NCBI GenBank assembly: GCA_947623455.1
Contig: OX392530.1
Span: 29,729,405-29,793,404, forward strand
DNA length: 64,000 bases
DNA from: Mimachlamys varia
Lineage: Eukaryota > Mollusca > Bivalvia > Pectinida > Pectinidae
Reading direction: 5' to 3'
In this document: piece after piece, positions 1-59,600 of the stretch
How positions within the stretch are numbered: the stretch's first letter is position 1
Layout of the letters: the number at the start of each line of letters is the position of its first letter
Translations under genes and position numbers: made by a program
Notes under the pieces: generated by a model
Told to the model about the DNA's origin: nothing
The model's database searches: none
The model's input: only the letters and a program-made list of their open reading frames with translations

Positions 1-3000
1 TAGATAGTCTTGAATTGATGATCATGCGCTTACCAGAATATCCTGTTATCAAAAGCCAAGCAGAACATATAAATGAGGGATAAGGATATGATGACTACCA
101 TGTAAAACAAGTTGTCTGAGGAATACTGTTCCTGATTTTTTTTTATGAAACAGCTGCTACGATTAGTTTATCAAATTTTTACACAGTTTATCAGATTTTT
201 AAACCCATATATATAAATAATGATGACTTTCCCACCATGACAATTCTGTCTTCATTCCTGGAATATTAGAAATCTGAAATTGGGACGTATTCTTTAAGAA
301 TATGACTATCACATAGCTTTCCCTTTACATTTCCTGAATTCAAAGTTCTGAAATGAGCAGAAATCTGGATGCGTGACTGACCTTTCTGGCTGACTTTCTC
401 TGTGACATACACGTGCCAGACGAGGATGGTACCGACGCTGTCAGCAGTGTACATCTTCTGACCATCGTCATCAAAACAAAGCGAGTTAACATGGCCACGG
501 TGGTCTTCAATCTCTTGTTTTAACTGGAAAAAAAAAACAGAAGGTTTTCCCGATGATAATTCCATTACCAAAAATTCAACAAGTTGCCACAGTCAAAAAT
601 ATTTCCTATGTAATTTCTAGAATTGGGTATGAACATTTTTTAAGTTAATTATGACATACCATTTAAAATTGGTTATATATCTATATTTACTTTTGACTCC
701 TCAGTGAGAAAGCTGAATTTTAAACTGAAGTTGTTAAGTGTGTTAAAATGCAAGCTTCATCATTCATCTTAATGTCTCAGTTTATTAAATATTTTAACCG
801 GTATATACAATCACTCTTCCCGAGTTACCAAAGACATAAAAAACCTGCAGGGAACGCGGTCCCTGTATATAATACAGAGACATTTACATGTACATTCATG
901 AAATTAAACAAACTGTGGTTAAATATAAATGAGCGTTCAACAGATACTCCTGAAAAACAAGCGTAGGTCACTTACACTAAGTCCTATATAGAGAGAGTTA
1001 AAGTGTATATGAATGTGGTAGGTGGTATATTGGTAGGTGGTTATGGTATGATTAATTGACTACCAATTCCCCATTATCTTTTATTGATGTTTATAACACT
1101 TTTTATCTCTAGGTGAAATTAAAAATTCCAGTAAGGTACAGGCACATGTTGACCCCAGACATGTTGACCCCAGACATGTTGACCCCAGACATGTTGACCC
1201 CAGGCATGTTGACCCCAGGCATGTTGACCCCAGACATGTTGACCCTGGCCATGTCCTACCTGTCCATGAACGCTGGTTACATCCACATCCCAGATCCGCA
1301 CCACCTGGTCGTATCCACCCGTGGCGATGATATTCTCCACACGAGGGTGGAATTGTGCTGTGTATACAAAGCCAGGATGGGGCAATAGCTTGGCTGAGGT
1401 ATCAAAGTTCTCCAAACTCCACACTCTGGTAAACAAACAAAGAATATTAAGTTACTTGAAAGAAACTTTTGATCACCATGTTGTATCCTAGAGATTAATT
1501 CCAACCAATTTTGCTACATAAGATCAAACAAAGAGTTACCTATATAGCAGTGTATCTTTATACAACAAGGTTCTTATCGCCCCCCCCCCTCCCCCCCCTT
1601 TTTTTTAACCATTTTACAGTAATTAGAATGACAATAGCAGAATACTAAAACAGTGAAATAATTACATGCATGACATTATTGTTGATTTAATTAGAAGAAA
1701 TGTTTTATAAAAAATACACCAATTAAACAAATATGCACATAAAAATTGCCAAATGTTGACAGAAATCATCAACCTTTACTTTTGATATGAGAAACGTCTA
1801 CCTACTGCTGAAACTGTTTCTTTGTTTGGCCTGAAGCGTTTATTTAATGGGCATGCTCTCGAAACACAAACATAACAAATGTCACAAGCTCGCATAGTCA
1901 GAACTTATCTTCAATCAATCAAATGTTCATTTGGTTGAAGGGAGACAACATCTTTTCTGTATCGAGTATAACTTTGCATCAGTTATCTCCCCTGTCTCAT
2001 TGACCCGATTCAGAAGCTGTGGTTTACTTTCTCTTCTCGCAGTATGCAGTATGAACTGAGACTCCAACCATACAGAATGAGGATAGAGGTTGTACACACT
2101 GTGCATGTAACAGCCTACCTGGTACGCATTTTCAATCTGAAGAGTTCCTGTAGTGGTCAATTTTACCATACCATTATGTAATGTTGAAAGGTCAATTACA
2201 CTACAGTGTATGGTCAGGCTACATACCTGACAGTTCCATCAGATGAGGCCGAACATATCTGGTCATCCTTCTTGGACCAAGAAAGGTCATACACAATCCC
2301 AAAATGACCTTTGAACTTTCCCAGCAGCTGACCTGACGGGATCTATGATTGCAAAAAAAACACAGTTATACATATTACACAAACGTGGAATTTCTGCAGG
2401 GAAAATATCAATGTTGTTTACATTTGCTTGGATATGTTTTTTGTTCAATTCAGAAAAATGACAAATGAAAGAATACAAACCTCATAGACTAGAATTGGAT
2501 AGTTTTCCCTGTCGTGACAAGCACATGCTAAATTTCTGAAATACAATAATGCAATAAGGTTCAAACATACAGTAAAAGCAAAACAAAAATTCTTGGATAT
2601 TTTCACACACTAGGTACATGTATTAAATATTTTAAAAGATACTGACAAATTAAATATATAGAATAAACAAAAGCTCTGTCAAGGCTATTGTAAAATATAA
2701 TTATTTTTCAGTATTTGATCAAACTTTTTTACATATTCATTATGCATAATATTGAAAGCACAATTTATCAAACTATTTTGATATTTCATACAACCCATTA
2801 ACCCATTAACTTGGAATCTTTGATGTTAAGACAGTCTGTGTGACTTAAACTTCCTCTTCTGCAATCATACATATAACTTACAATGGTAGTTAATTTAAGG
2901 TACATGTGTACATGTAAGTGAGTCTACACATCATTGGTATATTATACCTTGTTTCTTAGTGTATTAAAATATGTAAAAAGTTTGTTTGAAAATGCTAATT

Positions 3001-4034
3001 TCATGAATATTATTATTCCCACAAATTTACCTTGTTTCCAATTGTATCAACATATGTTAAAAGTTTGTTTGAAAATACTAATTTCATGAATATATTATTA
3101 CCACAAATTACTTGTTCAGCATAAAACTGGGACGACACTCCATAAAGTTAGCTGTTACATATCAACAATCAACTCTTTTACCCCTTCAATTTCATATTGT
3201 ACTATTCCAACATTTGAACTGGAAGTGCTCAAATGTGTCTTCAGGGGTGAATAATTAGGTATATAATTTGACTACAGACTGCAATAACATGGATATATTT
3301 CTGTGTCTATAGCGGCGTTAAACATGTAACTAACTGTGATACTTACCGTCCATCGTGTGAGAATTTCAATACCATCCATCATATGAGAAATACTTACCGT
3401 CCATCGTGTGAGAATTTCAATTACTGTCCATCGCGTGAGAATTTCACTTACTGTCTATCGTGTGAGAATTTCAATACTATCCATCATGTGAGAAATACTT
3501 ACCGTCCATCGTGTGAGAATTTCACTTACCATCCATCGTGTGAGAATTTCACTTAACATCCATCGTGTGAGAATTTCACTTACCGTCCATCGGGTGAGAA
3601 TTTCACTTACCGGCCATTGTGTGAGATATACTTACCATCATTCGTGTGAGAATTTCACTTAACATCGTTCGTGTGAGAATTTCACTTACCATCATTCATG
3701 TGAGAATTTCACTTACCATCCATTGGTTGAAAATTTCACTTACCGTCTATCGTGTGAGAATTTAAATACCATCCATCGGGTGAGAAATACTTACCGAACA
3801 TTGCATGAGAATTTCACTTACTGTCCATCGTGTGAGAATTTCAATACCGTCCATCATGTGAGAAAAGCTTACTGTCCATCGTGTGAGAATTTCACTTACC
3901 GTCCATCGTGTGAGAACTTCACCACGTAACACCCCTTCCTCCCAGCAGGTAGCGTCAGTTTCATCCTGTTAGGGATTCGACACAACTGACCGACCAACCT
4001 CGACCATGAGGAAAGTGTCTTCCTATCTGTCTCT
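1..4034 (-). CDS. AHI1: AHI1 exons 16-22: start of the WD40 propeller
   Basis: Exon 3900-4034 encodes the lead-in to the propeller (LCRIPNRMKL, KGCYVVKFSHDGR), matching the human segment ending DFSHNGR. Exon 2481-2535 gives LACACHDRENYPILVYE. Exon 2227-2342 holds a WD unit with GHFGIVYDLSWSK and SSDGTVR. Exon 1260-1425 has LPHPGFVYTAQFHP and GGYDQVVRIWDV. Exon 382-523 has HRGHVNSLCFDDDGQKMYT and TILVWHVY. The next pieces are a 33-nt micro-exon (99-131, LRQLVLH) and a partial exon (1-42, GKRMIINSRLS) that aligns with human GKRLLIHTKDS. Phases agree at every junction. The micro-exon was chosen because it is the only segment I found that keeps phase and resembles the expected sequence; an unseen alternative is possible. 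Confidence 0.85.
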
Positions 4035-10000: not shown

Positions 10001-13000
10001 CACTTCGGGTTAGATCAAATTGATAATGTTACCTGTGAGGGAGTGTAAATGGGAATCAGACACAACGTGTTTATCAAGGAAGGGAATCAAACTTATCATT
10101 TCTTTAATGTCTTCTGTATTACTGAGTTGGCTATGCTTTTCTACAGTAAACACTTAAATCAATTACATACAAACGTTTCTCAAATTTGATTGGCCTTCCA
10201 CTAGCAATATTCCACTACTAAGAGATATGTTTCCTATATACACAGGGAGAAACATGACATACTATAACCTACCTCTTTTTCCTGAGGGAACAAAAGTAGA
10301 AAACATTTATGTAGAAAATCAACTGTACATTGATAAGGTAGAACTTAAAATGAGAAAATACACTATATACTTACATATTATTGAATAATACACAGGTATA
10401 TCAATAAATAATACACAGGTGCATCATTAACATAATACACAGGTATATCAATAAATAATACACAGGTGCATCATTAACATAATACACAGGTATATTAATG
10501 AATAATACACATGTACATTAATGAATATTACCAACGTATATTAATGAATAATTCACACGTGTAATAATGAATATTACACACGTATATTAATGAATAATAT
10601 TATTATATTATACACAGGTGTATCAAGAAAATAATTATCTCTGTGACAATGTCTATAATATGGAACACGGCATGCAACACAATGAACAGCTTCAAATTTG
10701 TTTAAAATCATAAAACATCAAAATAAGTAACTGAAAAATTACAGAAATTATAAAATAAATAATTTAAGGAAATACATCACATGCCATAACAAAGTATTGC
10801 TTAAACATGTACAGATTAAAAGTCGTGCAACGTTACAAGACAGACTGCTCCCTTCTTCTATTGATGACTGAGTTAGTAACAATATTTACATTGTATGAAG
10901 TAAAACTGTGATATAATTCAGCTTAAGTTTGACAAAGGAACCAGTCGATCTTGAAAAGTTGCGATACATTCACATGTACATTGTTTTGATAAAAAAGTGA
11001 AAGTTTGATATTGCAAATTTCAGAAATGAAGAATGTTATTAGGGTATCATGCATTTTATGATTTTTTTTTTCAGCAAATTATGGCTTCATATTTAAAGCA
11101 AATGTCAAGTTGACCTATAGATTTCACTTAAAATAAGAATATAACTATCAATTTAAAATTCTGTTGTTTGTAGTCTAACAGCTGCATGTTAGAAATAGTA
11201 TACCCTTATGATATAGTAAGCTGGTAAAACAAGGGACTATTCCAGCTAGTCACCAGTTTATGGGGAGGATCTCCTAACAATTTGTCTTTTCCCGCTGTTA
11301 TTATTGTATATTCTAACAAACACTTCAGTTCAACCAAACAATATCGTAAATACATTTACTCTGGAACAGGCCATAACAAGCTTGCAATGACTATAGTCAC
11401 ACAGCAGAGTTACTTCCCTTGAAATGGTATAAACGTAAATGGTCAAGCTCTGTGTATAGTATATAATAATGGTACACTGTAAGTTCAAGCGCCTTTTACA
11501 AAAACGTAAACATGACCTTACCTGGCATCTGACCAGTTGATACTCTTCTTTAGGTCTGCATAGGTCCTGCTGCCTACCTCCTGAAACACATTGTAATGGC
11601 AACACCAGTTACTATCAAACCAAGATAAATGTCAACGAAACACAACGTAATGGCAACACCAGTTACTATCAAACCAAGATAAATGTCAACGAAACACAAC
11701 GTAATGGCAACACCAGTTACTATCAAACCAAGATAAATGTCAACGAAACACAACGTAATGGCAACACCAGTTACTATCAAACCAAGATAAATGTCAACGA
11801 AACACAACGTAATGGCAACACCAGTTACTATCAAACCAAGATAAATGTCAACTCAATTAAACATTTGTACATTATAATTAAGGCAATCATGAATATGGAA
11901 AAGTGCAAAGTCAAAACAATAGACTAAAAGACATTTATTTCAGTACATATATTAATTATATTTACCTTCTGTGTTGCAAACATGGATCGCATGGCTGGTT
12001 CCACAGTATCTGGTGGTGTGATGCCCTTCAAGGTCACGTAGAGAGTGGACGGGTAAGGACGCCGACCCTGGGTCTTCCACCACTGCCACAGCTGGTACAG
12101 AACAAAAAACAAAATAAATCAGGGTTTAGTAATTAGAAAAGATCGCGTAGAGAGAAGACAAGTAGGGGCGTCGGCCCTAAGTCTTCCACGACTGCCACAG
12201 CTGTTACAGAACAAAAAACTAAATAAATCAGGGTTTAGTTATTAGACAAGGTCACGTAGAAAGTGGACGAGTAGGGGCGTCGGCCCTAAGTCTTCTACCA
12301 CTGCCACAGCTGGTATAGAACAAAATAAATCAGGGTTTAGTAATTAGACAAGGTCACATAGAGAGTGGACGGGTAGGGGTGTCGGCCCTAGGTCTTCTAC
12401 CACTGCCACAGCTGGTATAAAACAAAAAACACATTAAATCAGGGTTTAGTAATTAGACAGGATCACGTAGAGAGTGGACGGGTAGGGGCGTCGGCCCTAA
12501 GTCTTCTACCACTGCCACAGCTGGTATAAAACAAAAAACACATTAAATCATGGTTTAGTTATCAAACAAGGTCACATAGAGAGTGGACGGGTAGGGGCGG
12601 CGGCCCTAAGTCTTCTACCACTACCACAGCTGGTACAGAACAAATAACAAAATAAATCAGGGTTTAGTAATTAGACAAGGTCACATAGAGAGTGGACGGG
12701 TAGGGGCGTCGGCCCTAAGTCTTCTACCACTACCACAGCTGGTACAGAACAAATAACAAAATAAATCAGGGTTTAGTAATTAGACAAGGTCACATAGAGA
12801 GTGGACGGGTAGGGGCGTCGGCCCTAAGTCTTCTACCACTACCACAGCTGGTACAGAAAAAACAACAAAATAAATCAGGGTTTAGTAATTAGACAAGGTC
12901 ACATAGAGAGTGGACGAGTAGGGGCGTCGGCCCTAAGTCTTCTACCACTGCCACAGCTGGTACAGAACAAATAACAAAATAAATCAGGGTTTAGTAATTA

Positions 13001-16000
13001 GAAAAGATCGCGTAGAGAGTGGACGAGTAGGGGCGTCAGCCCTAAGTCTTCCACGACTGCCACAGCTGTTACAGAACAAACAACGAAATAAATCAGGGTT
13101 TAGTAATTAGACAAGGTCACATAGAGAGTGGACGAGTAGGGGCGTCGGCCCTAAGTCTTCTACCACTGCCACAGCTGGTACAGAACAAATAACAAAATAA
13201 ATCAGGGTTTAGTAATTAGACAAGGTCACATAGAGAGTGGATAGGTAGGGGCGTTAGCCATGGGTCTTCTACCACTGCCACAGCTGGAGCAGAACAAAAA
13301 ACACATTAAATCACAAGCTCACAGACTCTACAAATATTTCTACAATTTTAAAGCAGTACAAATATTTACACATCAATAAATCTGACCTTAAAAAATGATA
13401 AGGGGACCAATGGGAATGCATTACTCACCCGGTTTTATCTCTTTTTAACTTAAATATATGGCTACATATCATTCAAAAGAACATATGAAATATTTAAGAT
13501 ATATTCGACCCCTGTGATCTTGAAGGATGTCAAGGTAATTTGTATTCAAAATTTTTGTTCCAATTCTTCAATGGAAGCAACCAGCCAAATCATATGTCTA
13601 GGCGATTAGGTATTTCTGAAAGAAGTAGTTTAAAGGTTTGACATATTTGAACCCTGTCACCTTGAAAGTAAGTCAAGGTCATTTCATTGTTCAGCTTCTT
13701 CAGAGAAAGCTACGTGCTAAATATCATGTCCCTAGGCCTTTCAGTATTTCAGAAGAAGTTTTTTGAATGTTTGACATATTTGACCCAAGTGACCTTGAAA
13801 GTAGGTCAAAGTTGGATTGGTTGGGTTTTTTTTCACAATCTTCATCAGGCTTCATCCCAGGAAGCTACATGCCATCTTTCATGATGATACACCTAGAGGT
13901 ATTTCAGAGGAAGTTGTTTAAAGGAAAAGCTACTGCATCATCGCAAAATCTAAAATTCTTATACAGTTCTGTATAATCAATATGGTGTGACACCAAACAT
14001 AGCCAGTTCTGTGTTCTGTAAGACCAAGTAACATGAAATTATATAACTACAATTATAGTACATCCACTTTCTATACACTTGTCAGGCTATACTTAATGTT
14101 AACAAAACAACAAACGAATTACCTCCACTTGGCCTGGCTTTGGTCGGAATCTGTAAACTGGTTCAAACAGCTGGAGGCGTACCTTGGAGCCAACATTCAA
14201 TTTGTCGTTCACTCCCTTCACCTAAACAGGAATCAGGTCACATGTTTACAGGTTAAATATCACCTGTGTCATCAGGGTAAAGTTCATCAGGGTAAAGTTC
14301 ATCAGGGTAAAGGTCACCAGAGTAAAGGTCATCAGGAATTAGGTCAGAGATCATTGGTTACAGGTAAAATATCACCAGTGTCATTAGGGAAAAGGTCATC
14401 AGGGTAAAGGTCATCAGTCAAGAACAACATGGAGTCATAGATGTGAGACAAGATTTTATCAGCAGTTTGTTTTATAGATGAGCAGTTTAAAACAAATGCA
14501 ACTAGAACTGTAAGCCGATGGCTGACTAATACCCCCCGCTACCTCTTATTAGAGGTGTCTGACATGTTTTTGAAAAAAACATGATGTAGTACAAGTTGTA
14601 TATAACATGCATTATATAATGTCAACAGTCAGCAGAATTTTAAAAGCCGAACAGACAAATTTTAACCTGTGTATAGTAATCCTCAACATTACTTACTGCG
14701 AAGTTTCATTGAAAATGACCCAGTAGTTTAGAAGAAGTTGTCCAGACATCATGTTATTACGGAAACCTGTGTATAGTCACCTCATTACCATGGCAACCAA
14801 AATTTTGACAAACGAAACCCTGTATGCAAATCTATACATGGTCCCCAACAATACTGCCAAGTTTCACTGAAATTGATCCAGTAGTTTAGGAGGAGTTGTC
14901 CGGACAACACATTATAATGGAAACCTGTGTATAGTGATCTGGTTACCATGGCAACCAAAATTTTGACAAACGAAACTCTGCATGCACATCTACACATGGT
15001 CCCCAACAATACTGCCAAGTTTTATTGAAATCAATCCAGTAGTTTAGGAGGAGTTGTCCGGACAACATTTTATTATGGAAACCTGTGTATAGTGACCTGG
15101 TTACCATGGCAACCAAAATTTTGACAAACGAAACCCTGCATGCACATCTACACATGGTCCCCAACAATACTGCCAAGTTTTATTGAAATCGATCCAGTAG
15201 TTTAGGAGGAGTTGTCCGGACAACATTTTATTATGGAAACCTGTGTATAGTGACCTGGTTACCATGGCCACCAAAATTTTGACAAACGAAACCCTGCATG
15301 CACATCTACACATGGTCCCCAACAATACTGCCAAGTTTTATTGAAATCGATCCAGTAGTTTAGGAGGAGTTGTCCGGACAACATTTTTCTACGGACAGAC
15401 AGACGGACAGACAAGCTGATTCCAGTATACCCCCCCTAACTTCGTTGCGGGGGGGGTATAATGATAAACATATTGAAAAAATCACTTGCTTTTAATTTCA
15501 AAGAGAAATGTTTGCTCAATCTTTTTTCCACCAGGGATAGGGACTTACTTGCTGTCAAATACAGTTATAAACTTATCAATATTCTACTATTCAGCACTAA
15601 CTTTGTTAATATAAAAAACCTTGTTACAATATTCTTTTTTCTCTTTAAACAAACCTATCTAATGATACAATTTTTTACACAAGTAACTTTTAACATGCAG
15701 TTTCTACAGCATAAACCAAACATGTATACTGATTTAAACTTGGGTCCTTAGTAAGTTACCTTTAGAAATCCCCAGGCGATTCTGTGCCAGCCACCCTCAC
15801 TCTTACTGTCCTCGTATTGTCGACTGGCTGTGCTCATGCTTACAAAGTCTAACAGCTGAAGAAACAAATGAGCATATAGCATTCAAATATTGTACCAACA
15901 AACAGCAGAATAATAATTATATAATATAATCTAAAATGATAACATATATTTGAACATTCCACAGGCAAGTCCAACCTACGAAAATCCAGAAAACAAAGCT

Positions 16001-19000: not shown

Positions 19001-22000
19001 ACCATTGACAAAGCTCATCTTCAGGCATCACCTTGTGAAATCAAAAAATCTTAAACCTTGCTGTTTATGGCCATTATACTTAACTTTGAATTAAAAGTAA
19101 TCCCATAACATCTTAATATCATCAAAATACTTACCCAGGATAAAGTGACTGATGATGATTTATATGACACTAATTAGGCAGTAAATGTTTACTTACCTGA
19201 ACTTCCTCCCCTTCCTCTCCCTTCTTCTTCTTTTTCTTTTTCTTCTTGCCTTTACTAGGTGTGGTTGGCTCCTCGTCACTCATAGGAGGTGACAGCATAG
19301 CTTCTTCCTCTTCTGTTTCCTTCTTTACTTTTTTCTTCTTTTTCTTCTCTGGCTTTGGTGAGCCCGTCTCGGCTGGTGACATAGCTCCTTCTTCTTCTTC
19401 CGTTTCCTGCCCTTTTTTCTTTTTCTTCTTCTTGCCAGCTTTGGGTGAGGTAGGTTCAGATTCAGGTGGGGACAGGGGCTCTTCTTCCTCACCTTGTTCA
19501 TCTGTCTTCTTTTTCTTCTTGCGTTTAGCAGGCTTTGGTGAGGCTGGCTCGGACTCTGGTGACATAGGACGGTCATCATCTGCAGCCTTCTTCTTCTTTT
19601 TCTTCGTCTTTGTGGGAGTGGGAGGCTCCTCCTCAGGAGCTACAGCTTCCTCCTCAGTATCAGGGGGTTTCTTCTTCTTTTTCTTCTTCTTCTCCACAGG
19701 TGCTGAGGGATCTAGTTCTAAGATAGTCACTGATTTCTCTTTAGGTGAGGTTAAACCAGAGTCGTCCCTACCAGAACAAAAACATCAGTATTGCAGTTCA
19801 AGTCTACCAATAGATTCAATTGAGTCTAACACATAAATTATATATCTGGATTCCTCATCATCATTTTTCCCAATCATTCAGGTTTTTTTAGGCAAATTCC
19901 TAATGAATATCAGATCCAACTTCTTTGTAAGCGGATGAAAACATTTCTTTAAAAGACTTTTAAAATAAAAATATTTAAATTTTCAAATTAAAGTAAAAAT
20001 CATGAATGTTTAACAATAGAGAAATGAATTATATTTTACTTCTTTTTCTTCTTCTTTGTTTTCTTTGTTTCGTCAAGAATTTCAAAGCCTTCATTGTCTT
20101 TCCCCTCTGAAAACATCAAAACAAATACATTTATTTGTTAAAACATACTGGTAAGCTTAAAAAGAAAATTGTACCGATCAATTTGTTTATTTATTATTTA
20201 TTTTGTAAAATAATAGTATCAGAAAGGATCTAGAAACCAGTTGTACAACTTATATCAATCTGTAGTATTTTGTAATTTAGATGCAACCATGACTATTAAT
20301 ATTTTTATTATTATAACATTTCTCTAAATTGTTATAATATATTGCAGGATGGAAAACCCTAACAACAGCTTCTGACAGAAAATCATTTAAGGATTAACTT
20401 TCTACTTTGTTTTGGTTCCCGGGGATAACTACAATGCAACAGGGGTAAATTCAATAGTTTATCCGTTTTCCATTGTAGTTATCCCCAAATAACCTGAACA
20501 AAATAGAAAATTTATCCTTATATTGACAGTATCTTTTTGTGAAATGTTTGTAACTATTATATAGTCTCATCTTCAGACACAGATTTCATTTCAAAACTAA
20601 TAATCGTGAAAATGGTTCAATAAATGTAACAGAATGAAAATTGCATAAATCATTGTTACTCTCCCCACGTTTATTGTTGGTGACGTCACACAATTGGGTT
20701 TCAAACTGAAGGATTTGCATAGCTCTGCCAACATGAATTAATGTTGACGTCATAGAAATTTGGCACGTGTTTGAGTAGAGTTATGAGGTGGTAATGACAG
20801 TCTGCAGTACAATGGTTATCGAGTGAATGACAGTATAGACTGTAAATATTACATTTTACATGTAGAAAAAAATAGCTTACAACAATACTTTGCTTTACCT
20901 GGTAACTGACTTTGACATGTCCCTACCTATTTCCTTTAATTTCTGTTTTTGTTTGTTACTTTTCTCATTCTTGGGGCTGTTTCCAGGATCGTAGGTGTTG
21001 GCTTTAATGGCTGCATCCTCATCTTTCTGTAGACCTTCCCCTTTCCGGAGTGACTCCAGCTGCAACGAAGGGAAAACAATTCATGAAACAAGAACTCCAG
21101 CTGATTTATATTATTATTTGGCTTATTTTGTTTAATGCCCTATGAACAGCCAGGGTCATTTAAGGATGTGTCAGGTTTTCGAGTTTGAGGAAAGCCGGAG
21201 TACCTGGAGAAAAACCATCGACCTACGGTCAGTACCTGGCAAGTGCCCCACATGGGATTCGAACTGGCAACCCAGAGGTGGAGGGCTAGCGGTAGAATGT
21301 CGGAACACCTTAACCACTCAGCCACAGCAGCCCCTGTATTTTATTTATTTTATTATTGTAGACTGATTCAAATGTTAGATTCAATAGACCGAAAATCTTG
21401 ATTTTTCCACCAATTAAATCAACACTACCTGTTTTCTTCATATGCTTCCACAATCTCACAAGCTTGACTACTTCATAATAAAATTTGATACTTTTTCAAA
21501 ATCAATCAGCAGGCTAACATTCTAAATCTATACAAAACTGTACATTGCTGGTTGTTTTTTTCACTCTAAATCTATACAAAACTGTACATTGCTGGTTTTT
21601 TTTTACTCTAAATCTATACAAAACTGTACATTGCTGTGGTTTTTTCACTCTAAATCTATACAAAACTTACATTGCTGGTTTTTTTTTTTTGATTGAGATA
21701 TTTTACAATTACTGTACCGGGTACCGGTATTACCTATATCAATAAAAAATGTACCTGGTATGTTCATAGTACTATATATATTACACAGATTCATAGTGCT
21801 ATACACACCAGATTCATAGTGCTACATGTATACATACCACAGATTCATAGTGCTATACATACCACAGACTCATCAGTTTGCTTTGTCTTCTTCTTCTTTT
21901 TAGTCTTTGCTCCCCTGTAAATAAAATCATGTGGTCAGAGTGTACTAGTATAGCATACCTAAGATTACTGTAAACAAATTTTAGCGCATTACCAAATTTA

Positions 22001-31540: not shown

Positions 31541-34500
31541 GTAAGCGTCATTGTTTCTTGATATCAAGTTCATTATATGAGTGATATATTTGTGCATTTT
31601 TCAAATGTACAAATATATCTGGTTTTGGAAATTACGCCGTAAGAAAGTTGTTTTCTTTCTGAAATCGTCGACAAATTTCAAGATCTGTCTTGCGTTTACC
31701 TTGGCGACAGTTTGCAATCGGCTTGATATGGGATTTTTTGTCAACTTGTCAACGTCGTTTTAATTAATCGTACATACATTATAGAAAAAACAAAAACAAT
31801 AATTGCCATTATTGGAAAATCAATTGGTTTGATTTCGAATTACGATTTGTTTATAAAAGAAGAAGATGCGGGGGGGGGGGGGGGGGGGGGTTACAAAAAT
31901 GTAACTGTATTGCAGTAGTAATCAGCTGAGAGCACTGTGCGGTTGCAGGAAAGTGTTTCAATGAAAAAATAATCTTCAGTTTGTTGAAGGTGGCTCACTA
32001 TATGTAGAACTTATCAGAAGCTGAAATACATGTACTTCATACAGGCAAACTCAAATGGCAATAGTGTTTAATAGTATGGGTTTTAGTTCAATAATTGTTT
32101 AAATTTCATCAAGACTGTACTGTATAGTAAACATTTAATTTTTTATTCAAGGAGTGGAAGAGTACCAACTGCTAGTGGGGGTCGTCCCAAGACAGGAGCG
32201 AGGGGAGCACTGGGAACAGGTATTGCATTTTGACAACAAATTAATGTTTTGGGTTTCCTTATAAGAGAGCATAATCTGTAGCATCTCCATTTTGATTTTG
32301 AAATTTAACCTCTTCGATGCTACCATGCCCATTTTCAACCCTGAAGGGACCTTCTTGAGTCATCAAATACAATGTTTCCATACTTACACTCTATGCTTCC
32401 ATTATTGACGCTTTTTTTTTTGCTTTTTTTGATGGGGGGATACTCTAGATCTGCATGGTATTATCAGAAGGTGGTGAAGGCTATTTTGTTTATTTAATAC
32501 TGTGACTATTGTAGCTGCTGGGATACAACCAGGAACAGCTTCAAGATTGACCACAGCAATGGTAAATATGTCATTATAAATGTCTCAATAGACTGACCAC
32601 AGCAATGGTAAATATATCATTATAAAATGTATCAAAGATTAACCACAGCAATGGTAAATATGTTATTATTTAGCATCTTAAAGATTGTAAAGTGTATTCA
32701 TTCGTGTAAATGAGGAAGTTTTATGTGAGCTGGCATGATGTGGATATTATATATATAATGTGAACACTGTACAATTATAAATTTTATAATTATACAATAG
32801 CAGTGACAAACAGGACCACCATTGAAAGTATCATTTTAATGTAAGAGAAATGGGAACAATCAGTGATATAGCAACTAGAAGTATAATTAGTGTAATGTCT
32901 TGGTTTAATCATAGTAAGAACAATTTATATTTCACAGAATCCCGGCACTGCTCGTCCAGGAACCAGAGGCGGTTCTTTGGGAGGGGGAGTTGGTGAGTAC
33001 AGGCAGTCATTGTATTCTCCTCCAATTTCCGAGTTTACAGTATACAGATACCATGTAAGAAACAGTGCTAAGATTAAAACAGAATTTAAAGGACAGAGTC
33101 CTAAGTGATAAGTAAGATTCTTTTGTAAAATATATTATTTTTCCATCTGTTAACAGCACTGAATGCCCAGGTGAAGGTTGTGGACCGCCCTATGACACAG
33201 CAAGGCCTGGGAGGCATGAAGACTGGAATCAAAGGTAATTCTGACTTCAAATCTTCTGTATGTTTTAAGTCACATTGTCATATTTAAATTTTTTTCAATG
33301 ACATGACAAAGTGAAACAGTTTGATATCTTAAATAAAAAATAGAGTAGTGTTTTGTTTATTATTAATTATTTATTGATTGTGATGTGGTATTATTTCAGG
33401 TTCAGGCCCACAGAGACAGGTCCAGGACAGAACTTACTTCCTAGGACTGATCAGGTACATATGGACAGGAGATGTTTGAATTTTGAATGTTTATTTTATT
33501 GTGTTTGTCTCAAAGGATTGTAGTGTTGTATTTTGACTGACATAACAGCTCCAGGTGTAGACTTGATACATGGACAAGACCTCATAAGTTGCTATTGCTT
33601 TTGTAAAGTTTGACCCAATTAAAACACTTTAAAATGACTGGTCCAAAATGAATGTTTTACAATACATAAAGATGCATTACACTAGTTTTATACACATATT
33701 TGCCTTTTTTTTTTTTGTTATTTTCATGCATGCTCAGAATTGAAGCATAAGTTGAATGTATGTTCTTGTGGGAACATAAATCCTGTTGAAATGGCATCTT
33801 GCAAGTTTTCTTGATCATTAATCATCATTAGATATAAGACTAGGAAGTGTTTAGCAAATGTGCTAATTTGAAAATACTGAATTCAAGGGTTCTGAATTAT
33901 AATCCGATCTTCCTCTTGAATAGGAAGAGTTGGCAAGTATATACTGTATATAAAATGTTTGTTAAATTGTTTTTGCAGGAGTAAAATCAATGAATTGAAT
34001 ACAGAGAACACCAGATTAAACAAAGAGATTGATAGTACACAGGACGAAAATTCCACATATCTGACGTATGAGAAAAGGTGAGTAGATTCTGTTTTCGCTC
34101 ATTTCAAAATCAAACTTGAATGTTGAATATAATTCAAATGGAGAGTGAAGCCTTACTTCTAGGTTGTAAGTACCTGTCGAGGTTCTCCTTGGACTCATTA
34201 ACCAGTTACCTATAAAAGTTCTGATTATGATGGATTGTTGCAAGAACATCAAATATTTGATATATGTAACAACATAAATCCAATCTGATTTAAATTATAT
34301 CTTGATCGCCGTGCTGTTCCGATAATTTCTCTCTGCTGTGTCAAGATCTGAGGACATCCCATAGGGGTCACGTTCAGATGACCTTTTGCATTAGCCAATC
34401 AAATAACTAATTTCAGAATCTGAAATGTGGATTTTTGAGGCGACAAAGTTTGCATAATCGCATCTGTATGATTAGTCATTTTGTCACCAAAAAGTTTAGG

Positions 34501-38100: not shown

Positions 38101-41100
38101 AGTTATTGCAAACAGACTATGTAGTAGGACAGCTACTTGATAGGACTGTGTATGTTTTGTATAGGTTTTTATTAATTTTAATATATTGCTTGGTGACTTA
38201 ATGTTGATTTAATTTACAGGAATTGTCCTTATCACAAGTCAAACAAGAAGCTGGTAAGTATGAATGGTCTCCCTTTGAAGATGCATCAAATCATCTTTAT
38301 ACACTGGTTTGATGTTCAGTGTGAATAACTAATCCTAGAATGTAGTATAAATGTTCTTTTTGATGTATTATTAATCTTTTTGATAAGTGTACTGTAAAGC
38401 AGTTATATATTTCGCTGGGATTTATTTTGCTATATTTGTGTTTTCACCAAATCTTCAAATCCTAAACACAAATAAAATATATAGCACAACACTGATGTTA
38501 TGAAGAGATGTCAAAGAACTGTATCATAACATGGTGAAAATATAATTCAAAAAGGTTACCAGTATATTTCAATGTACAGTATACTTTAGTCGACTTAGCA
38601 ATAGAAGTTGGGATATAAGACATATTTTGATAATAAATGATAGTGGTATTCCGACTAAACCATTGTGGGATGAAGGAACTGACCGATAAATCAATTACAA
38701 TTTTCATGATCGACTTTACTCTGTTTACTAAAGTAAATTATAGGAATCCGTGCATCAACATTTGAAAATTTAACTGATTCCTAACACTAACAAATAAATA
38801 CATGTCAAAAACCTGTCTGTTCAAATGTGACTATTAGCCACGGTACATGTAGTGAGGTATAGTAGGCTGTCAGTCAAATGACACAAACAATAGTTTGTAA
38901 AATCATGATAAGTATAAAAGCATTTAATTGATTATAACTCACTTTTATTACATATTCTACTAGTACTAGCTGAGCGAAGTCACTGGGGCATGACGATAGT
39001 CCGGACATTAATATATTGTAAACGCTTATTGTTATTGGCATGCTGCATACCTGTTTTCAAACGAATTTGCCCTCAAACAATTAGACCCAAAATACATTGC
39101 ACAGCAAAGTGGATAAGTGCTAGCAGTCTTGTAATTATGTTTTATGAATTGTCTGCAATAGCGGAAGCAGGAGGACTCGCTGGAAATCTGAATATATGGT
39201 AGTGAAGTGGACCGAAAACCACTCAAATAATTGGGTACAGGTGGTGTACAGCAAAATTTCCATCCGGCAAATATGTTACATAAACACCACAATATTAAAA
39301 TGGTATATTCTATATTCATACATTAAAATTCTCCAAGTCATGGATATAAAATATAACCTTTCTTTATTTGTCTAATGTATTTTTGAAATTATAAAACATG
39401 TATGACTTGACCTCCCAGTTTTAGAGTCACATTATTTTGTAATTCTGTTTCTAGTGAGACTTTACGAGCAGCTTAACGAGTTGGAGTCTAAGAGAGACAG
39501 TCTGATAGAGGAAACAAAATCTACGGTGTCACCGGCCGAGGAACGGGAACGCCTTCTGAAACAGGTCAAAGAGGACAACCAGGAGATCGCCAGTGTAGAG
39601 AGACAGTACGTACATTAAACACTGTTTAGTATAACATGGTATAGTGGTGATCGTCAGTGTATAGAGACAGTATGTACATTAAACACTGTTACTATAACAT
39701 GGTATAGTGGTGATCGTCAGTGTAGAGAGACAGTACGTACATTAAACACTGTTTAGTATAACATGGTACAGTGGAGATCGTCAGTGTAGAGAGACAGTAC
39801 GTACATTAAACGCTGTTTAGTATAACATGGTATAGTGGTGATCGTCAGTGTAGAGAGACAGTACGTACATTAAACACTGTTTAGTATAACATGGTACAGT
39901 GGAGATCGTCAGTGTAGAGAGACAGTACGTACATTAAACACTGTTTAGTATAACATGGTATAGTGGTGATCGTCAGTGTAGAGAGACAGTACGTACATTA
40001 AACACTGTTTAGTATAACATGGTATAGTGGAGATCGTCAGTGTAGAGAGACAGTACGTACATTAAACACTGTTTAGTATAACATGGTACAGTGGAGATCG
40101 TCAGTGTAGAGAGACAGTACGTACATTAAACACTGTTAGTATAACATGGTATAGTGAAGATCGTCAGTGTAGAGAGACAGTACGTACATTAAACACTGTT
40201 TAGTATAACATGGTATAGTGGAGATCGTCAGTGTAGAGAGACAGTATGTACATTAAACACTGTTTAGTATAACATGGTATAGTGGAGATCGTCAGTGTAG
40301 AGAGACAGTACGTGCATTAAACGCTGTTTAGTATAACATGGTATAGTGGAGATCATCAGTGTAGAGAGACAGTATGTACATTAAACGCTGTTTAGTATAA
40401 CATGGTATAGTGGAGATCATCAGTGTAGAGAGACAGTATGTACATTAAACACTGTTTAGTATAACATGGTATAGTGGAGATCGTCAGTGTAGAGAGACAG
40501 TATGTACATTAACTGTTTAGTATAACATGGTACAGTGGAGATCGTCAGTGTAGAGAGACAGTATGTACATTAACTGTTTAGTATAACATGGTACAGTGGA
40601 GATCTTCAGTGTAGAGAGACAGTACGTACATTAAACACTGTTTAGTATAACATGGTACAGTGGAGATCGCCAGTGTAGAGAGACAGTATGTACATTAACT
40701 GTTTAGTATAACATGGTACAGTGGAGATCTTCAGTGTAGAGAGACAGTACGTACATTAAACACTGTTTAGTATAACATGGTATAGTGGAGATCGCCAGTG
40801 TAGAGAGACAGTATGTACATTAAACACTGTTTAGTATAACATGGTATAGTGGAGATCGTCAGTGTAGAGAGACAGTATGTACATTAAACGCTGTTTAGTA
40901 TAACATGGTATAGTGGAGATCGTCAGTGTAGAGAGACAGTATGTACATTAAACACTGTTTAGTATAACATGGTACAGTGGAGATCGCCAGTGTAGAGAGA
41001 CAGTACGTACATTAAACACTGTTAGTATAACATGGTACAGTGGAGATCGTCAGTGTAGAGAGACAGTACGTACATTAAACACTGTTTAGTATAACATGGT

Positions 41101-44100
41101 ATAGTGGAGATCGCCAGTGTAGAGAGACAGTATGTACATTAAACACTGTTTAGTATAACATGGTATAGTGGAGATCGTCAGTGTAGAGAGACAGTACGTG
41201 CATTAAACGCTGTTTAGTATAACATGGTATAGTGGAGATCGTCAGTGTAGAGAGACAGTATGTACATTAAATGCTGTTTAGTATAACATGGTATAAATTT
41301 ATTTGGCATGGAGTTTTATATCAGTTTGTTGACGGTGAAAGATTTTCTCTATTTAAAAACTACTTAAAACTCATTAGTCATTAATATAAAGACATATCTT
41401 ATGTGAGTGGGGTAGCTTTCATTCTCCTAGTCTTAGCTGGATGTTGCCATGTTGGATTCAGGAATTCCTTCTCTGTCATTGATAAATAACATTTGTTTGT
41501 AGGACAAAGGAGATCAGAGAGAAAATTGAGCAGATGGAAGAAGAAAGCAGACAACTTGATATTGATATAGAGGAGAATCAGGGTAGGTTGAGTAAAAGCA
41601 GGAGAATGAAATCACGGTATAAAGTCAAATTGTAAATCCTCAACAATGATGGCCTATTACGATATATTTGCAAATCTGGAGATGAGCAATGGTTTGAAGG
41701 AGGACTAATGTTCACTTGCATATAAGGCCTAGTTGTCAAATTAATTCACAAAGCAGACAAAATGTTTGATTGGCTTGGGCACATGTTTATGTTTACCAGA
41801 AAAAAACATCGGTAAAATGTGCCTTATTTATGCACATTTGTTCGAAAATCGCTGACAATAATATTGCACATCATGAGTACTACACGTTATTGTGTAGTTT
41901 AACACTAATGTGTAAAAATAGGACAGTGTACGCAAGTTATACGAGGTTTTCAATTGCCTTCCCGAGGGCCATCCATTACTTAAGTTCTGCAATCAAACTG
42001 TGTGTTTGAACTATTTGAAACCTGTGTAAGAAAGGTTCGAATTATCAGTAGCCTAAAAATTATTATTTTCATCGCTTAAAAGATGTGTTCGAACTATCCG
42101 CCTATTGTAACTGACCGAAGATTTATCGTGTATGTAAAGGAAGACCATTTTACAAATACAAAAGATGAAATTAGGCTCATATGGAAAAAGATTGGTTTAT
42201 TTAATGTAAATGCAGAGGACAAGGGATGGAGAGAGGGGCTCGGATGGGGGGGAGGGGTTCTAAGCAGACACAGATTCACATAGAGGATTCTAAACTGCTA
42301 TAAACAACAAAGGTCATGTCTTTTTTCAGGTGAAAGAAATCAGAAATACAAAGAACTGAAGAAACGAGAGGAAACGATGGATGGTAAATATAACTGATCA
42401 TCAAAATAATGTTTGTAAAATAACAGGTAAGAAGGTAAACATCGAAACTGCATTGGGACATATTTTGTTTGATTTACAATAGTTTATTTCTTTGTTGATC
42501 AGCAAATAATTTCTGGTGGTTATGATTAATAATAAATACACTTAAAATGAAAGTAAGTCCACAAGCCATGTGAAAACCCTCACAATAAAATTCTTATTAG
42601 AAGGGTATGACATTAATTGGCATGAAGAAAGAAAGTTTTGATTTGACATTTGTTCAGTCTATTTTTGATGAAGTCACACTTTAGCACTAGCAGGGAGTAT
42701 ATCTGTCATTGTTTCTGTAGTTTTAATTTGATTTATTTGTGTGGTCACTCCGAACTGTTTGACATACTGACATGACAAGGTAACTAACTAATATATGAGT
42801 CTACAAGACAAGTGAAATATACAATAATTATAATAAATTAACACATTCTTTCCATTTCAGAATTTCTCAATACTTTCGAAGAATCTAAAATGCAAGAAGG
42901 GGTAAGTTAACATCACTAGTTAAAAACTTTTCAGTATAATTAAATGTGTAGAATATTCATGACTTTAATATTTCATTATTAAAAGCTTAATTAATAAAAT
43001 GTCGGTAGAATTTTGTGGAATTTTTAAAAGTAACACAAGATAGATATTTGTTCTCAAAAATACTTTTTAGAGATTGGTTAAGATTGCTGAAGTTTTTATT
43101 GTTATACATAAAAGTGCTTTCTCTGGTTTTCATTTTCTGATTTTCCTGTTTCTGAAGTGTGCTCGAGCTAATTTTCCTTTGTGTTATTTCAGCAAAGAAT
43201 TAATCAACTAGAACAGAATGTTGTCAGTATCCTGGAACACATAAGTCGGGTAAGTGGAAACTGTCTATAACATTTAGATAACGGTTGTAATTGGTTATCC
43301 TGATACACATTAGTCGTGTAAAGAGGAAATTTGTTTACATTTAGATAACCGCAGTAATAATGTCTTGAATTGGTTATCCTGAAACACATTAGTCAGACAA
43401 GTGGAAACTGTCTTTAACATTTAAATAACAGTAGTAATTAGTTACCCTGAAACACAGTAGTCGGGTAAAGAGGAAATGTGTTTTGCATTTAGATACAGGA
43501 AATAGGTATTAAATGATATCTGAAATTTGTTATCCTGGAACATCAGTTGGTCGAGTAGTACAAGTGTTGTTTTTTTTTCGGATTGGATAGTATGTAGAAT
43601 TTCATGCAGTTTCACGCATCATGACTTTGTTGCTCTTTCAGAATATGAGTCGATTCTCACATCTACCAAGTCCACAAGAGCTGGCAACAATGAAACAAGA
43701 CTTAGACTTCAAAACCGGAGAGATGAAAAAATCAGAAACTACCACCTTCGGACTAGCAGCAGGTTGGTATACTTATCCCAAGACGTTACATTTGGAAATC
43801 AGTTGGTCCTTCCAGACTGTGGCCCATGTTCAAATACATGTTAATATGAATTGTCTTTGCTACTAAAAACAAAATAAAAGGCATTCTATTAAATAATAAT
43901 CATACAAGATGTAACTCAAGTTAAATAGAATGTCCTCGCTCCCCTAGGATCACCGCAGGTGTTGTTATAAACATGTTCCTGTCTTCTAATGATCTTGTCC
44001 ATGCTTAAACCTTCTGAAAGGTCTTCACAGACCATTCATAGCTTTTGTAGTCATGTACTTTCAATGGCATCTGTATGCATCCATCAATATATTTCTGCAA

Positions 44101-47100
44101 CAACATAGACTTATAATCTTCAGATAGAAAAAGACTGCCAAGTCTGTTAGATTTAGGGCAGCTCTTCTGATATATCATGATTGGGAAATGAACATAAAAG
44201 ACAGTTACACTTCATTGTATAGCTTTGATGATACCTGTAACAAAATGGCTTTTTGAAAAATCTTTCTGTAGTCATTTAATACAGTACCCGGGTATTTAAA
44301 TCATTCATGATCCTCGATATTCAAATTAATTGTCATTACATCCAGAAAATTTCTATTTACCAGGGTAATGGAAATGCATTTAACATCAACTTTGATATGA
44401 CTTTATGATCTGCATAATATCATATTGTATTGAATAGTTTCTCATCACTGTTGTTAGAGTGTTAGGTTGTAGATTTATCAACAATGTTTGGTTGTAGAGA
44501 GTGACAAGCTACAACAGTTAGGTCACAGATTTATCAACAATTTTAGGTTGTAGAGAGTGACAAGCTACAACAGTTTAGTCCCAGATTTATCAACAATGTT
44601 TGGTTGTAGAGAGTGACAAGCTACAACAGTTAGGTCTCAGATTTATCAACAATGTTTGGTTGTAGAGAGTGACAAGCTACAACAGGACCTACAGAAGGTG
44701 GAACAGCTGGAAGATAAGATCAACTCAGAGTTAGTTGTGTTGGGAGAAAAGATCGCCACTATGGAGAAGGAGTTGGATACTTACTCTGACCTTGACACCC
44801 TCCGAAGAAACTCGGAACAGAAAAAGAAGGTATTTCTTTTGCAGACTGTTCTTTGTACTATTATGTTTTGTGCAGGTCAATATTATGAGTACATCCAGTA
44901 AACCCCCTCCCCACAAAAAAAAATGCAATTTTGCCAGGTGTTGGTACAAATGACTAGGTAATGTTTTAATGTTTCTTATGTAGAGTCCACCAGGTGTTAT
45001 TATGTTTTATGTTTTTCAATCTGAAAAAAAAAGATGGCTGCCCTAGCCTCAGTAGAACAATGTTAAAGGATTTTACATGGCGAAATACTGCGTAACAGTC
45101 TGCATAGAAAAAAGGATGACTAATGGCCTCATATGTTAAATGAGTACTGTAGCCTCTGACTGACATTTAAAGGTTTTAATTTTTTTTTTAGAATGGCTGT
45201 TTTATTTGACCCAGAATTAGTACAAATGCTCCTTTAGGCGAGTAAATATTGTGTGAGCTTCAACGATTCTTTGCCTTGTTTTTGAAAAAATCAGCCATAT
45301 TTATGTCTCATTAACTCTTTTATCCCTAAAAACACATTAAACCTCTTCCATTTCAAAGGTTGGAATAGCTCATTAAGAATTTTCAGGGGTGAATGAGTTA
45401 AGACCACCTGATTTGAGAGAGAATAATTGTCATATACCTGGGTATTAAATCTGTCACAGAAACACCTGCTTTGTATAGAATAGAGTCTTAAAGGCCCAAT
45501 ATGCATAACTTTCGGCAAAACTTGAAGCGAAAATTAAGCCTAACAATTTATTATATTTCTAGATTTAGTTAAGATTAACTGATATCAGCAATATTCAAGG
45601 TGAATTCTTATGCGGATACCGGTACAGCAGCAGTTGAAACACGGTATATGGAAACACACGTCCATTTTGAACTGTCTTCTACCTTCAGTTTGTTGTTGAA
45701 GTGGGCCCCACCTGGATAATTTTCAGTTCTTTGGATTTTTCTGTCAAGAGTTTCTTATTAGTTACCGCTCATGTTTACTTCGTTTTAGGCTTATTTTTGC
45801 ATGGTTATCAACTGGATTTTATTTCATAAGTTTTCAGAATCCCGAAAAATATCCTGAAGTTACATATATTGGGCCTTTAATTATTCAGTCTGTTGATAAG
45901 AGGAGTGATGAACAACAGCCTTGATTGTGTGTTGAATTATTATTTACAGAAACTGATGGAAGATCGGATAATCCTACAGAAACGTAGAGATACCTTCAAA
46001 AAAACAATGCAGCACTTAACAGCAAAGTATGAGGGACTGAAATCTCACCTGAAAGAAAATGAAACCTTCAATCAGGTAAATATAAAAATGCTGATGTACT
46101 TATCCAGAAAAAAAGTCCATGTCTACTAAATAAGCCCACTAAGCCATCAACTCCTAGCTTTTGCTGTATTGATCTTGTAAAAATGCCAATGGTTGGTGTA
46201 TAAGCCAAGTAAAGATTTTTTGCAGTTTTGAAGAAAAGTCAGTAACTTTTATTTTCCTGTAATAAGCATTAAAAATCATTTAGTTTTCTATTAAAAAGAA
46301 TATATCAAATGTGTTCTCTTAAAGCATACTGCTCATTTACAGGTATACTGTAAAAGTATCGATGATGGATAAGCCAATGACATGAATTTAGTGGAACTTT
46401 TTAAATTCAATTAATTAGATATTACTTATATCATCTAAGTTTAGTTGAAGATTTAAAAAAAAGAAGTTATAGATTGATATCTAAATGTATTGTTGATATG
46501 ACATAAAAATAAACTTTTATTTCTATTTCAGCTTGAAAATTTGGAACGAAAATGGCAACATCATGAACAGAACAATTTTGTCATGAAAGACTGTATCCTT
46601 ATCAATCATACAACTGTACTAAACTGTATATTAGTTCTGTGTTAATTGACTTTAAATCTATATTATTGGTAAATTTTACAAATTAAAATTTGACAGGAGT
46701 CAATAAAGGTTAGACTACATGATATGTCATACATCACTGTCATTGAAAGCTCCTTCTCCCCCTCCTATCCCGATTAACAGTTTTAGCTTTAGGTTCACGG
46801 AAGCATATATTGGCCCTCAGTACAAGTCAATACTTGCATGTATACAGGTTAGGGGTATACTACCCAGGAAGGGGGTGGAATCTATTATTGCAAATATGCA
46901 GGTTCTGACACTGGAATAGAAAAGTACCTATTTTGCTGTTTCCAGACTACCTGGTACATTCCCAGAGAAGGCTAAGACACAAGTTATTTAGATAAATCGG
47001 TAAGTGAAGGCATCAATAAGTGATCTAAGATACAAATTATTAAGATAAATCAGTAAGTGAAGGCATCAATAAGTGAGCTAAGACAAAAATTATTAAGATA

Positions 47101-56600: not shown

Positions 56601-59600
56601 TTTTGCAATCACATTTTATATTTGTTTAAGTAATGTAAATGTATAATTAAACAGTGAGCCCAACACGGAGGTTCTTCAAATGGTCTGATATTTTTATTCA
56701 AAGCGTTATCATTATTTAAAGTGTTTAATATGACCATAATTTCACATTTTCTGACGACAGGTCACTAAAGCAGGAGAAATGGTCTATACTTTTGACTCCC
56801 CACACAGGAAGCCTTACGAAGTCCTAATCATTGGTAGCTGCAGGAAAACTGAGACATCCTCTGAAGGTATTGATGAAGAGACTGTTTTCCAGGAGAGGTC
56901 GACTTCACAGATCCCTGTCCACAGGGTGATTGTCAGTATACCATGCTGCATCCACTCTGTCAAACCTCCACTACAAGGCAAGTCTAACACAAACCTCCAG
57001 TACAAGGCAAGTCTAACACAAACCTCCAGTACAAGGCAAGTCTAACACAAACCCCCACTACAAGGCAAGTCTAACACAAACCTCCACTACAAGGCAAGTC
57101 TAACACAAACCTCCACTACAAGGCAAGTCTAACACAAACCTCCACTACAAGGCAAGTCTAACACAAACCTCCACTACAAGGCAAGTCTAACACAAACCTC
57201 CACTACAAGGCAAGTCTAACACAAACCTCCACTACAAGGCAAGTCTAACACAAACCTCCACTACAAGGCAAGTCTAACACAAACCTCCACTACAAGGCAG
57301 GGTTCTCATTAAAAGCGGGTTGCCGGCAAAAATAGCCTGTTATTCACCAACTCTGAACCAGCTATTTTTCAGAATTTTATATATGTCAACATTACCGAAT
57401 GTGAAATTAAACCGGCTATTCTTTCGAAGTCAACCAATTATTGCAAAACTTAGTGAGAACACTGAAATGAAATCTGCTGTATTCACTCTCTTAAACCTCC
57501 ACTACAAGGCAAGTCTAACACAAATGAAATCTGTTGTATCCACTCTGTCAGACCTCCACTACAAGGCAAGTCTAACACAAATGAAATCTGCTGTATCCAC
57601 TCTGTCAAACCTCCACTACAAGGCAAGTCTAATACAAATGAAATCTGTAGCATCCACTCTGTCAAACCTCCACTACAAGGCAAGTCTAACACAAATGAAA
57701 TCTGTAGCATCCACTCTGTCAAACCTCCACTACAAGGCAAGTCTAACACAAATGAAATCTGTAGTATCCACTCTGTCTAACCTCCACTATAAGGTAAGTC
57801 TTACACAAATGAAATCTGCTGTATTCTCTCTGTCAAACCTCCACTACAAGGCAAGTCTTACACAAATGAAATCCTGTACGAACTGCAAAGCTATTTGAAT
57901 TATTTAATGCAAAAATAATCTGTACAGAAAAACGAGGCAAACTATTTGAGAGGTATGCATGCATCGTTTGGCAATGGAAGGTGTCAATTCTCTAAACACA
58001 GTGACATATCAGTCTGCTTACTAGAGACTAAGGAGGGTGACTAATTATTTTGAAGCAAATGTTTTCAGCAAGCATGTAATTTAATTCTTTCTGAAGTAAA
58101 CTGAAACTTCATACATTGTTTCTTCTTCTTTAAAAGAATAAAATGTTTTTCAGGTGTGAAGGTCAAAGGTTAAGATCACTTACTGTTCGCCGGATCAATA
58201 ACACTCCTAGTATTGAGACACTGCTTAGTAAACTTGATCAAAATGAGTTATATGGCCAATCAAACTCAATTTTCTTCCAGCCAGTGTCAACTTTTTCTTT
58301 TCTGAATTTCTAAATAACTAACAGGTCAAAGGTGATATGGTATAAAGCCAATAACAAGCTTGGATGAAATGCAACTTAACTTATTCATGTAAATGATCTT
58401 GACCCACTTTCAATGTCACTAAAGTTAAATATGATGAAATGATATTTAATTAGCTTCCTCTTAATGTCAGAGCAAAGATCTCAGGGTGATAACTGTGAGA
58501 TAATTAGCATGATGGGATGAAGAGCTACACTATTTCCTGAAATGAACAATTGTGGACACATGTTCAAGGTCATATATGTCACATTTAGGAAGTATTTTCA
58601 AATGATTGACCTTGTTTTTTATACTGCTACTGTATGGACAGGACAGCTTTGCTGTTTACACACCTGAGTGAAATTTTTTGTAGACAGGACTGGTATTAAT
58701 AGACAGGACTGGTTCAGTGTTGCGAAGTACTATCAGGTGTATATGAGAGAGATCAGAATAATTTGTGATCATAATCCCTAGAGTATTGAAGATGTGTACA
58801 TCTTAGAATTGTCGCTGTGTACTTTCAGAAGTAATGAAGGAATATCTTCCACCCAACCCTCACTGTCTGGAACTATTTGCCAGAAACCTCACTCCCGACT
58901 GGACTAGCTGGGGTAACCAGGTACAGTATATATATATAGTCTATATCCTGATATATCAATCAGTGATTTCCCAGTTAGTGTAAAATGCATCAGTTAATGT
59001 GTTTAAATGGCAATAGTGCTTTCCAGGTGGTCTAAGACTTGTTGAATGAAAATGTAGAGTTCTGCAGCATGTTGTATTCACACTTCACTATGAAACTGAG
59101 GGTTAAGAATATACATTCATAAATCTCAATGGATGATTAAAATAGTCAGCATTAATATTAGCAGGTTTTCAATAACTAAATATATTGTCTGATTTAATTG
59201 AGATATTAATGGGATGTCAATTTGATGTACTGTATTTAATGAAACACAATTTTTTTAAGGGTCATCCCATTAAAAAAATCCAAATACAGATAGATAAGAA
59301 CCTGTCATTGTGATATGGTTTGACTGCAACAGTACATATTCACATTAATAGTAGAATGTTTTTCTTCTTTTTTTTATAGTGTATCTGATACACTACAAGT
59401 CACTGGAACTTCATACCTGGTGTATGGGTAGATCCACCTTGATAGGAAATCAAATAATGAAATGCCCTAAAATACATAGTGTCACCATGGCCAGATGCAA
59501 TTTAGAAGCATTATGGCACCACTTTACCGAGTTGGTCTAACGAGTTATACCGCATCACTAGAAAAGCTAGCTTTTTAATTGCCAGTAAGGCAGAATTCCC

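Follow-up and report, generated by a model that had tools for sequence, protein, structure and literature searches.

Minisatellites that include exon-intron junctions in three adjacent scallop genes: a probable by-product of tandem duplication in introns

The window analysed here is a 64,000-nt stretch of the scallop Mimachlamys varia (assembly GCA_947623455.1, contig OX392530.1, positions 29,729,405 to 29,793,404), in which tandem arrays lie across exon-intron boundaries of three adjacent genes, AHI1, IFT74 and METTL4. We consider it probable (about 70%) that these arrays are minisatellites with a real exon-intron junction in the repeat unit, the junction having been struck at random and the product tolerated as the exon and the outermost splice site stay whole. 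This reading is based on units that hold an exon end together with its splice signal, on exons that remain in frame, and on local duplication that is frequent in introns and seldom seen further inside the exons of independently sampled dynein heavy-chain genes. Because the crossing counts in four such genes match random placement, the repeats are likely tolerated by-products and not the product of a junction-seeking process.

Gene models were built from sequence only with our own gene finder, using hand-entered splice matrices and a codon table trained on the window exons; some long introns in the models probably conceal missed exons. One open frame ran across 19 joined AHI1 exons and 17 joined IFT74 exons, the four 5'-most IFT74 exons (including the one at 32561) also joined in frame, and in METTL4 the frame continued over the GC donor CTACAAG/GCAAGT into the next exon. 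Over query residues 3-474, the joined IFT74 protein aligned with chain 8bd7_G, a solved IFT74 structure (E 1.6e-50), whereas no solved relative was found for a single short IFT74 exon, and Pfam gave no family for IFT74. The METTL4 piece contained an MT-A70 domain (Pfam) and matched 7cv6_B (E 1.9e-17), the match ending before the junction, and the AHI1 piece contained WD40 repeats; for 5/7 pieces other than MT-A70 and a retroelement, Pfam returned no family. The names AHI1 and METTL4 come from a first-pass annotation of the window, and the WD40 and MT-A70 domains are consistent with them.

The results of Tandem Repeats Finder (TRF) on the window comprised 44 rows, and the arrays at or near junctions are given in Table 1. 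The first-pass annotation had claimed that eight arrays copy genuine junctions, six of them 5' and two of them 3' splice sites, and our analysis bore this out: all eight named junctions are exon edges in the models with flanking exons in frame, the TRF array overlaps the exon in seven of the eight, and junction copies were aligned for all eight. At the remaining junction, IFT74 43249, the repeat is degenerate; the TRF array is wholly intronic, beginning 118 bases beyond the junction, and 147 bp downstream lies a junction copy with 20/24 bases identical. The exonic reach of the seven TRF-called junction arrays was 11-63 bp, close to the 6-60 bp claimed, the frame continuing across the flanking exons agrees with the statement that the true exon is left intact, and the two near misses described in AHI1 were also present. 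Unit lengths ranged from ~25 to 64 bp at the TRF-called window donors and were 56 and 109 bp at the acceptors. The AHI1 array at 3341-3922 consists of ~22 repeats of the exon end plus GTAAGT. The splice signal was kept in 26/26 downstream copies found at IFT74 donor 39605 (GT), in 18/18 found at METTL4 donor 56977 (GC or GT) and in 11/11 upstream copies of the AHI1 acceptor array 12029-13313 (AG; exonic overlap 63 bp). The METTL4 intron at 56977 is a GC-AG intron, and its strong GC donor is the multiplied site.

Table 1. Tandem arrays at or near exon-intron junctions in the window (positions of the 64,000-nt stretch; arrays as called by TRF unless stated).
Feature	Coordinates	Strand	Repeat unit and copies	Junction and remarks
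AHI1 near miss, 15-bp array	1144..1245	-	15 bp	start 14 bases into intron after exon 1260-1425; without junction
AHI1 donor array	3341..3922	-	base unit ~27 bp	after exon 3900-4034
AHI1 near miss, 54-bp array	11583..11852	-	54 bp	end 2 bases before acceptor (11580) of exon 11522-11580; without junction
AHI1 acceptor array	12029..13313	-	109 bp, 11.9 copies	before exon 11966-12091
AHI1 donor array	21763..21873	-	~25 bp	after exon 21863-21914
IFT74 donor array	32543..32669	+	46 bp, 2.8 copies	after exon 32515-32561
IFT74 donor array	39582..41295	+	64 bp, 27 copies	after exon 39455-39605; donor GTACGT
IFT74 exon, its donor and degenerate downstream copies	43193..43495	+		exon 43193-43249; TRF call limited to 43368-43495
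IFT74 acceptor array	44471..44685	+	56 bp, 3.8 copies	before exon 44666-44829; AG kept in three upstream copies
METTL4 donor array	56961..57299	+	29 bp, 11.7 copies	after exon 56761-56977; GC donor
Second METTL4 array	57465..57873	+	57 bp, 7.2 copies	same intron as 56961-57299; built on same GC-donor sequence

The window had been picked for its junction-array pattern and cannot alone decide what is expected by chance. As an independent sample we used dynein heavy-chain genes found via Pfam PF12781, located on C7, C1 and C8, with part of one on C5; they provided 201 introns and 63 arrays, and the window provided 40 introns and 22 arrays. In the C8 dynein model, six predicted exons were dropped and two were trimmed by eye after the arrays had been seen; both trims made a donor adjoin an array, and the trimmed donor 25986 is among the six donor crossings given below. 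In the counting set for the window, IFT74 donor 39605 was placed at 39604 and exon 32938-32992 was absent, two introns being counted as one. Junction arrays were present in 3/4 sampled dynein genes, on three other chromosomes: in the C8 dynein at donor 25986 (47-bp unit with the exon end ATATCATCAAG followed across the junction by GTAA) and donor 45881 (97-bp unit), in the C7 dynein at donor 34781 (two copies) and acceptor 32474, and in the C5 part as one donor array and one acceptor array. Where called by TRF in the window and the dyneins, the acceptor units were 56, 60 and 109 bp. TRF coverage in the dyneins was 11.7% of introns and 0.76% of exons. As separate observations, the C7 dynein contains two similar adjacent predicted exons (oriented 45551-45673 and 46129-46251; FTGLEDFNWF.../FVLMDDYHWF...), perhaps an exon duplication or a mutually exclusive pair, and past that gene the C7 region (oriented 70382-76503) contains near-identical repeated predicted coding blocks (NMDKYKPITEAELG..., SMKITKLNMDIN...).

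Two other origins were considered. The presence of splice signals in the units would suit a dispersed, introner-like element that carries splice sites and was inserted, or a new intron born by duplication. However, the units differ among genes and copy the local exon, and the array at 3341-3922, the one of the eight searched genome-wide, matched only itself; we find this origin hardly credible, in line with the earlier statement that the arrays are not one dispersed family. An assembly artefact is scarcely more plausible, as a source of the pattern, given an assembly of chromosome scale (975.3 Mb in 71 contigs), copies within the seven TRF-called junction arrays that are not identical (TRF matches 75-98%) and the like structures in the dynein genes.

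To measure duplication by position, we scored a junction as duplicated if the 24 bases around it had a second occurrence (>=20/24) within 800 bp. The results showed that 8/201 dynein donors were duplicated, compared with 10, 11 and 14/201 at intron positions +15, +30 and +45 bp and 7 and 3/201 at exonic points 15 and 30 bp from the junction; for dynein acceptors the count was 3/201, compared with 5, 8 and 9/201 at the corresponding intron points and 1 and 0/201 at the two exonic points. Among window junctions, 6/40 donors were duplicated (5, 5 and 5/40 at the three intron points) and 2/40 acceptors (3, 3 and 4/40). Because donor and acceptor rates are no higher than those of nearby intron points, junctions are not peaks of duplication in either sample. 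The overlap of junctions with repeats thus did not exceed intronic coverage (donors compared with the +30 bp points), the outcome that the first-pass annotation had named as refuting its proposal. In the dyneins, the share covered by locally duplicated 24-mers was 11% for mid-intron, 4.5% for donors, 1.9% for acceptors and 0.2-0.8% for exon more than 60 bp deep; the same depth in window exons gave a higher rate of 1.7-7.6%, which comes from little sequence.

Raw coverage alone was insufficient for judging crossings: when an array is kept out of the exon, its edge unit is the only part able to reach a junction. We therefore added a seeding null in which the first unit of each array was randomly placed in its pre-expansion intron (Monte Carlo), with a crossing defined as >=5 bp and the ranges of expectation given by the smallest and the best-scoring TRF period. 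For the 63 dynein arrays, donor crossings numbered 6 compared with 4.2-5.8 expected and acceptor crossings 1 compared with 4.4-5.9, for a total of 7 compared with ~8.7-11.8 under random placement (P(>=7) 0.81-0.98). The recurrent process proposed by the first-pass annotation was offered in two forms, and they fared differently: selective survival of intron-side expansions fits the dynein duplication rates in mid-intron and deep exon, and mutational nucleation at junctions is unsupported by these crossings.

Several results weigh against random placement, and they bear on the alternative that 5' splice sites are preferred starting points for duplications, with arrays born there at about twice the rate of the remaining intron; transcription-linked breaks, R-loops or short direct repeats resembling donors are examples of how this could come about. 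Donor crossings in the window numbered 5 compared with 1.4-1.9 expected (P 0.009-0.023), and with the 2 acceptor crossings (1.4-1.9 expected) the joint P was 0.009-0.031. Pooling both samples gave 11 donor crossings compared with 5.6-7.6 (P 0.017-0.11) and 3 acceptor crossings compared with 5.8-7.8. In the dyneins, 12 arrays started between 80 bp inside the exon (-80) and +10 at donors compared with 5.85 expected (P 0.017), and 6 compared with 5.85 around acceptors. Array edges at -4 to +10 numbered 6 at dynein donors (P 0.013) and 5 at acceptors (P 0.042), compared with 1.9 each; these edges supply much of the donor start excess, and in some of them the repeated donor word is accompanied by no more than three or four bases of exon. 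Array-bearing donors were also slightly stronger (mean score 3.40, n=17, compared with 2.71, n=216; P 0.047), and donor-like AGGTRA words at intron positions 8-240 numbered 59 sense and 29 antisense, compared with 43 and 39 further in. Duplicated donors outnumbered duplicated acceptors across both samples (14 vs 5 of 241), a difference that was not significant (P 0.058), and the listed donor cases were unevenly spread, with 8/60 in the C8 dynein (8 of 17 in total) and 0/70 in the C1 dynein.

Against a preference for junctions, the dynein crossings fit random seeding, the donor junctions are duplicated no more often than nearby intron points in either sample, the window was chosen for the pattern, and the edge counts hinge on where TRF ends an array. 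We consider such a preference rather unlikely. The claim of junction nucleation in the first-pass annotation thus retains a weak hint in its favour, from the donor-side starts in the dyneins, with the crossing counts against it, and a mild donor bias is still alive.

Under random striking of junctions, the arrays could have arisen as follows. A first tandem duplication, by slippage or unequal exchange, would copy a segment some tens of bases long. Where the segment spans a donor, the first copy would retain the exon and the donor, and all later copies would become intron; with an acceptor in the segment, it is the last copy that would retain the acceptor and the exon. The acceptor case would work only if the segment also included enough of the polypyrimidine tract and branch region, a requirement under which acceptor arrays would be less frequent and have longer units. 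With a geometry filter of this kind (donor seeds with ~6 intronic bases, acceptor seeds with 25-45), the dynein acceptor expectation was 0.8-3.3 compared with 1 observed, which agrees with rarer acceptor arrays without proving it. Among equal copies, the splicing machinery would choose the exon-adjacent site through pairing across the exon.

We then assessed the copies as decoy splice sites, searching downstream of 16 donors (>=21/30 bases) and upstream of five acceptors (>=24/34). The results revealed copies at 15/16 donors, 87 in total, of which 80 kept GT or GC and 53 had scores equal to or above that of the true site; at acceptors, AG was kept in 21/21 copies. The copies were chosen by similarity, which favours retained signals, and for this reason selection is not inferred from the kept signals. 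Strong decoy sites, as the first-pass annotation had suggested, are thus present as candidate sites in the DNA, and the copy counts do not show that selection keeps them. A selective explanation, in which repeated donors persist because they bind the U1 small nuclear ribonucleoprotein or delay splicing, could draw on the difference between copies and true site, which is 6.6% at donor-window positions and 9.9% elsewhere. However, the 9.9% is inflated, as the flanks include the exon side beyond the array edge, the copies were picked by similarity, and 4/15 donors with copies had the reverse pattern; we regard selection for decoys as very improbable.

'First made wins' and 'nearest to other intron end wins' are ideas of splice-site choice in the splicing literature. 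Provided that the mRNA is normal, pairing across the exon is the likely means of selecting the true site, because decoy acceptors made before the true one still keep full signals; it would work at donors and acceptors alike, whereas order of synthesis would leave the acceptors unexplained. Considered for donors over acceptors, 'first-made site wins' was dropped as an only rule, all 21 upstream acceptor copies examined keeping AG. A bolder proposal would combine the two subjects: that 5' splice sites are roughly twofold favoured birthplaces of arrays, and that several per cent of introns carry full-strength decoys which are ignored via cross-exon pairing despite up to 26 equal donors or 11 equal acceptors. 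We hold this combined proposal to be tentative and on balance doubtful.

The arrays appear, from their sequence, to belong with the amphioxus 'mirages', now in a second animal lineage. Mirages are tandem minisatellite-like copies spanning an exon-intron boundary, found in the globins BflGb6 and BflGb9 and in Adh3 (PMC3087553), with the same structure in PGBD5 and troponin C (PMC3902484). They occur at 5' and 3' boundaries with units of 10 to 160 bp, many copies keep AG/GT and the authentic exon is intact (PMC3087553, PMC3902484); for Adh3 and the globins, reverse-transcription PCR suggests no interference with splicing (PMC3087553). The window arrays are alike in being minisatellite copies (by TRF in 7/8), in a unit made of an exon edge and a splice signal, in the occurrence of both boundary types and in the intact exon. 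They differ in coming from a bivalve, in reaching 26 donor copies, in the multiplication of a GC donor and in having been counted against a random-placement model. In amphioxus, splicing and length instability have been demonstrated, whereas the scallop case is known from one haploid assembly's sequence.

Related structures are described in human genes. The minisatellite of IFI6 (6-16) provides multiple splice donor sites (Turri et al. 1995, via PMC4526556); like the window donor arrays, it is a minisatellite at a donor supplying several donor sites, whereas its downstream copies are reported to be used and to give several mRNAs, the window copies being known at the level of DNA. Human segmental duplications contain minisatellite-type repeats of ~30 bp at exon-intron boundaries, with 27 intron modifications (De Grassi and Ciccarelli 2009, PMC2812944). 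The copy number of these repeats varies between recent paralogues, and the transcript is changed. In intron gain from a tandemly duplicated proto-splice site (Rogers model; Lehmann et al. 2010, PMC2891723), splice-competent sequence is likewise duplicated in tandem, whereas the window arrays copy a junction that already exists, and new introns were not seen. A mollusc case of such junction arrays was not found in openly licensed PMC papers, most subscription papers being outside the scope of this search.

In the literature so far, mirages are curiosities from a handful of amphioxus genes; in the scallop the same structure occurs in three adjacent genes and in 3/4 dyneins, where roughly one donor in 25 (8/201) is affected. 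If their transcripts are normal, these loci would be ready-made tests of how the spliceosome chooses among many equal sites, and the two rules of site choice named above predict clear, opposite outcomes at them.

Three further features were observed in and beside the window. A retroelement remnant or copy lies between AHI1 and IFT74 (26209-28466, plus strand), with a PF03372 endonuclease (E 8.2e-9) and a PF00078 reverse transcriptase (E 6.6e-31) in overlapping frames. Just downstream of METTL4, ~143 copies of a 28-bp unit occupy 59963-63954, and the many long open reading frames there are repeats. Past the right end of the window, at a distance of 1.3-5.7 kb (L004:1252-5695), a minus-strand prediction contains long open stretches of a repeated KISVATQTAVEETVTQ-like peptide.

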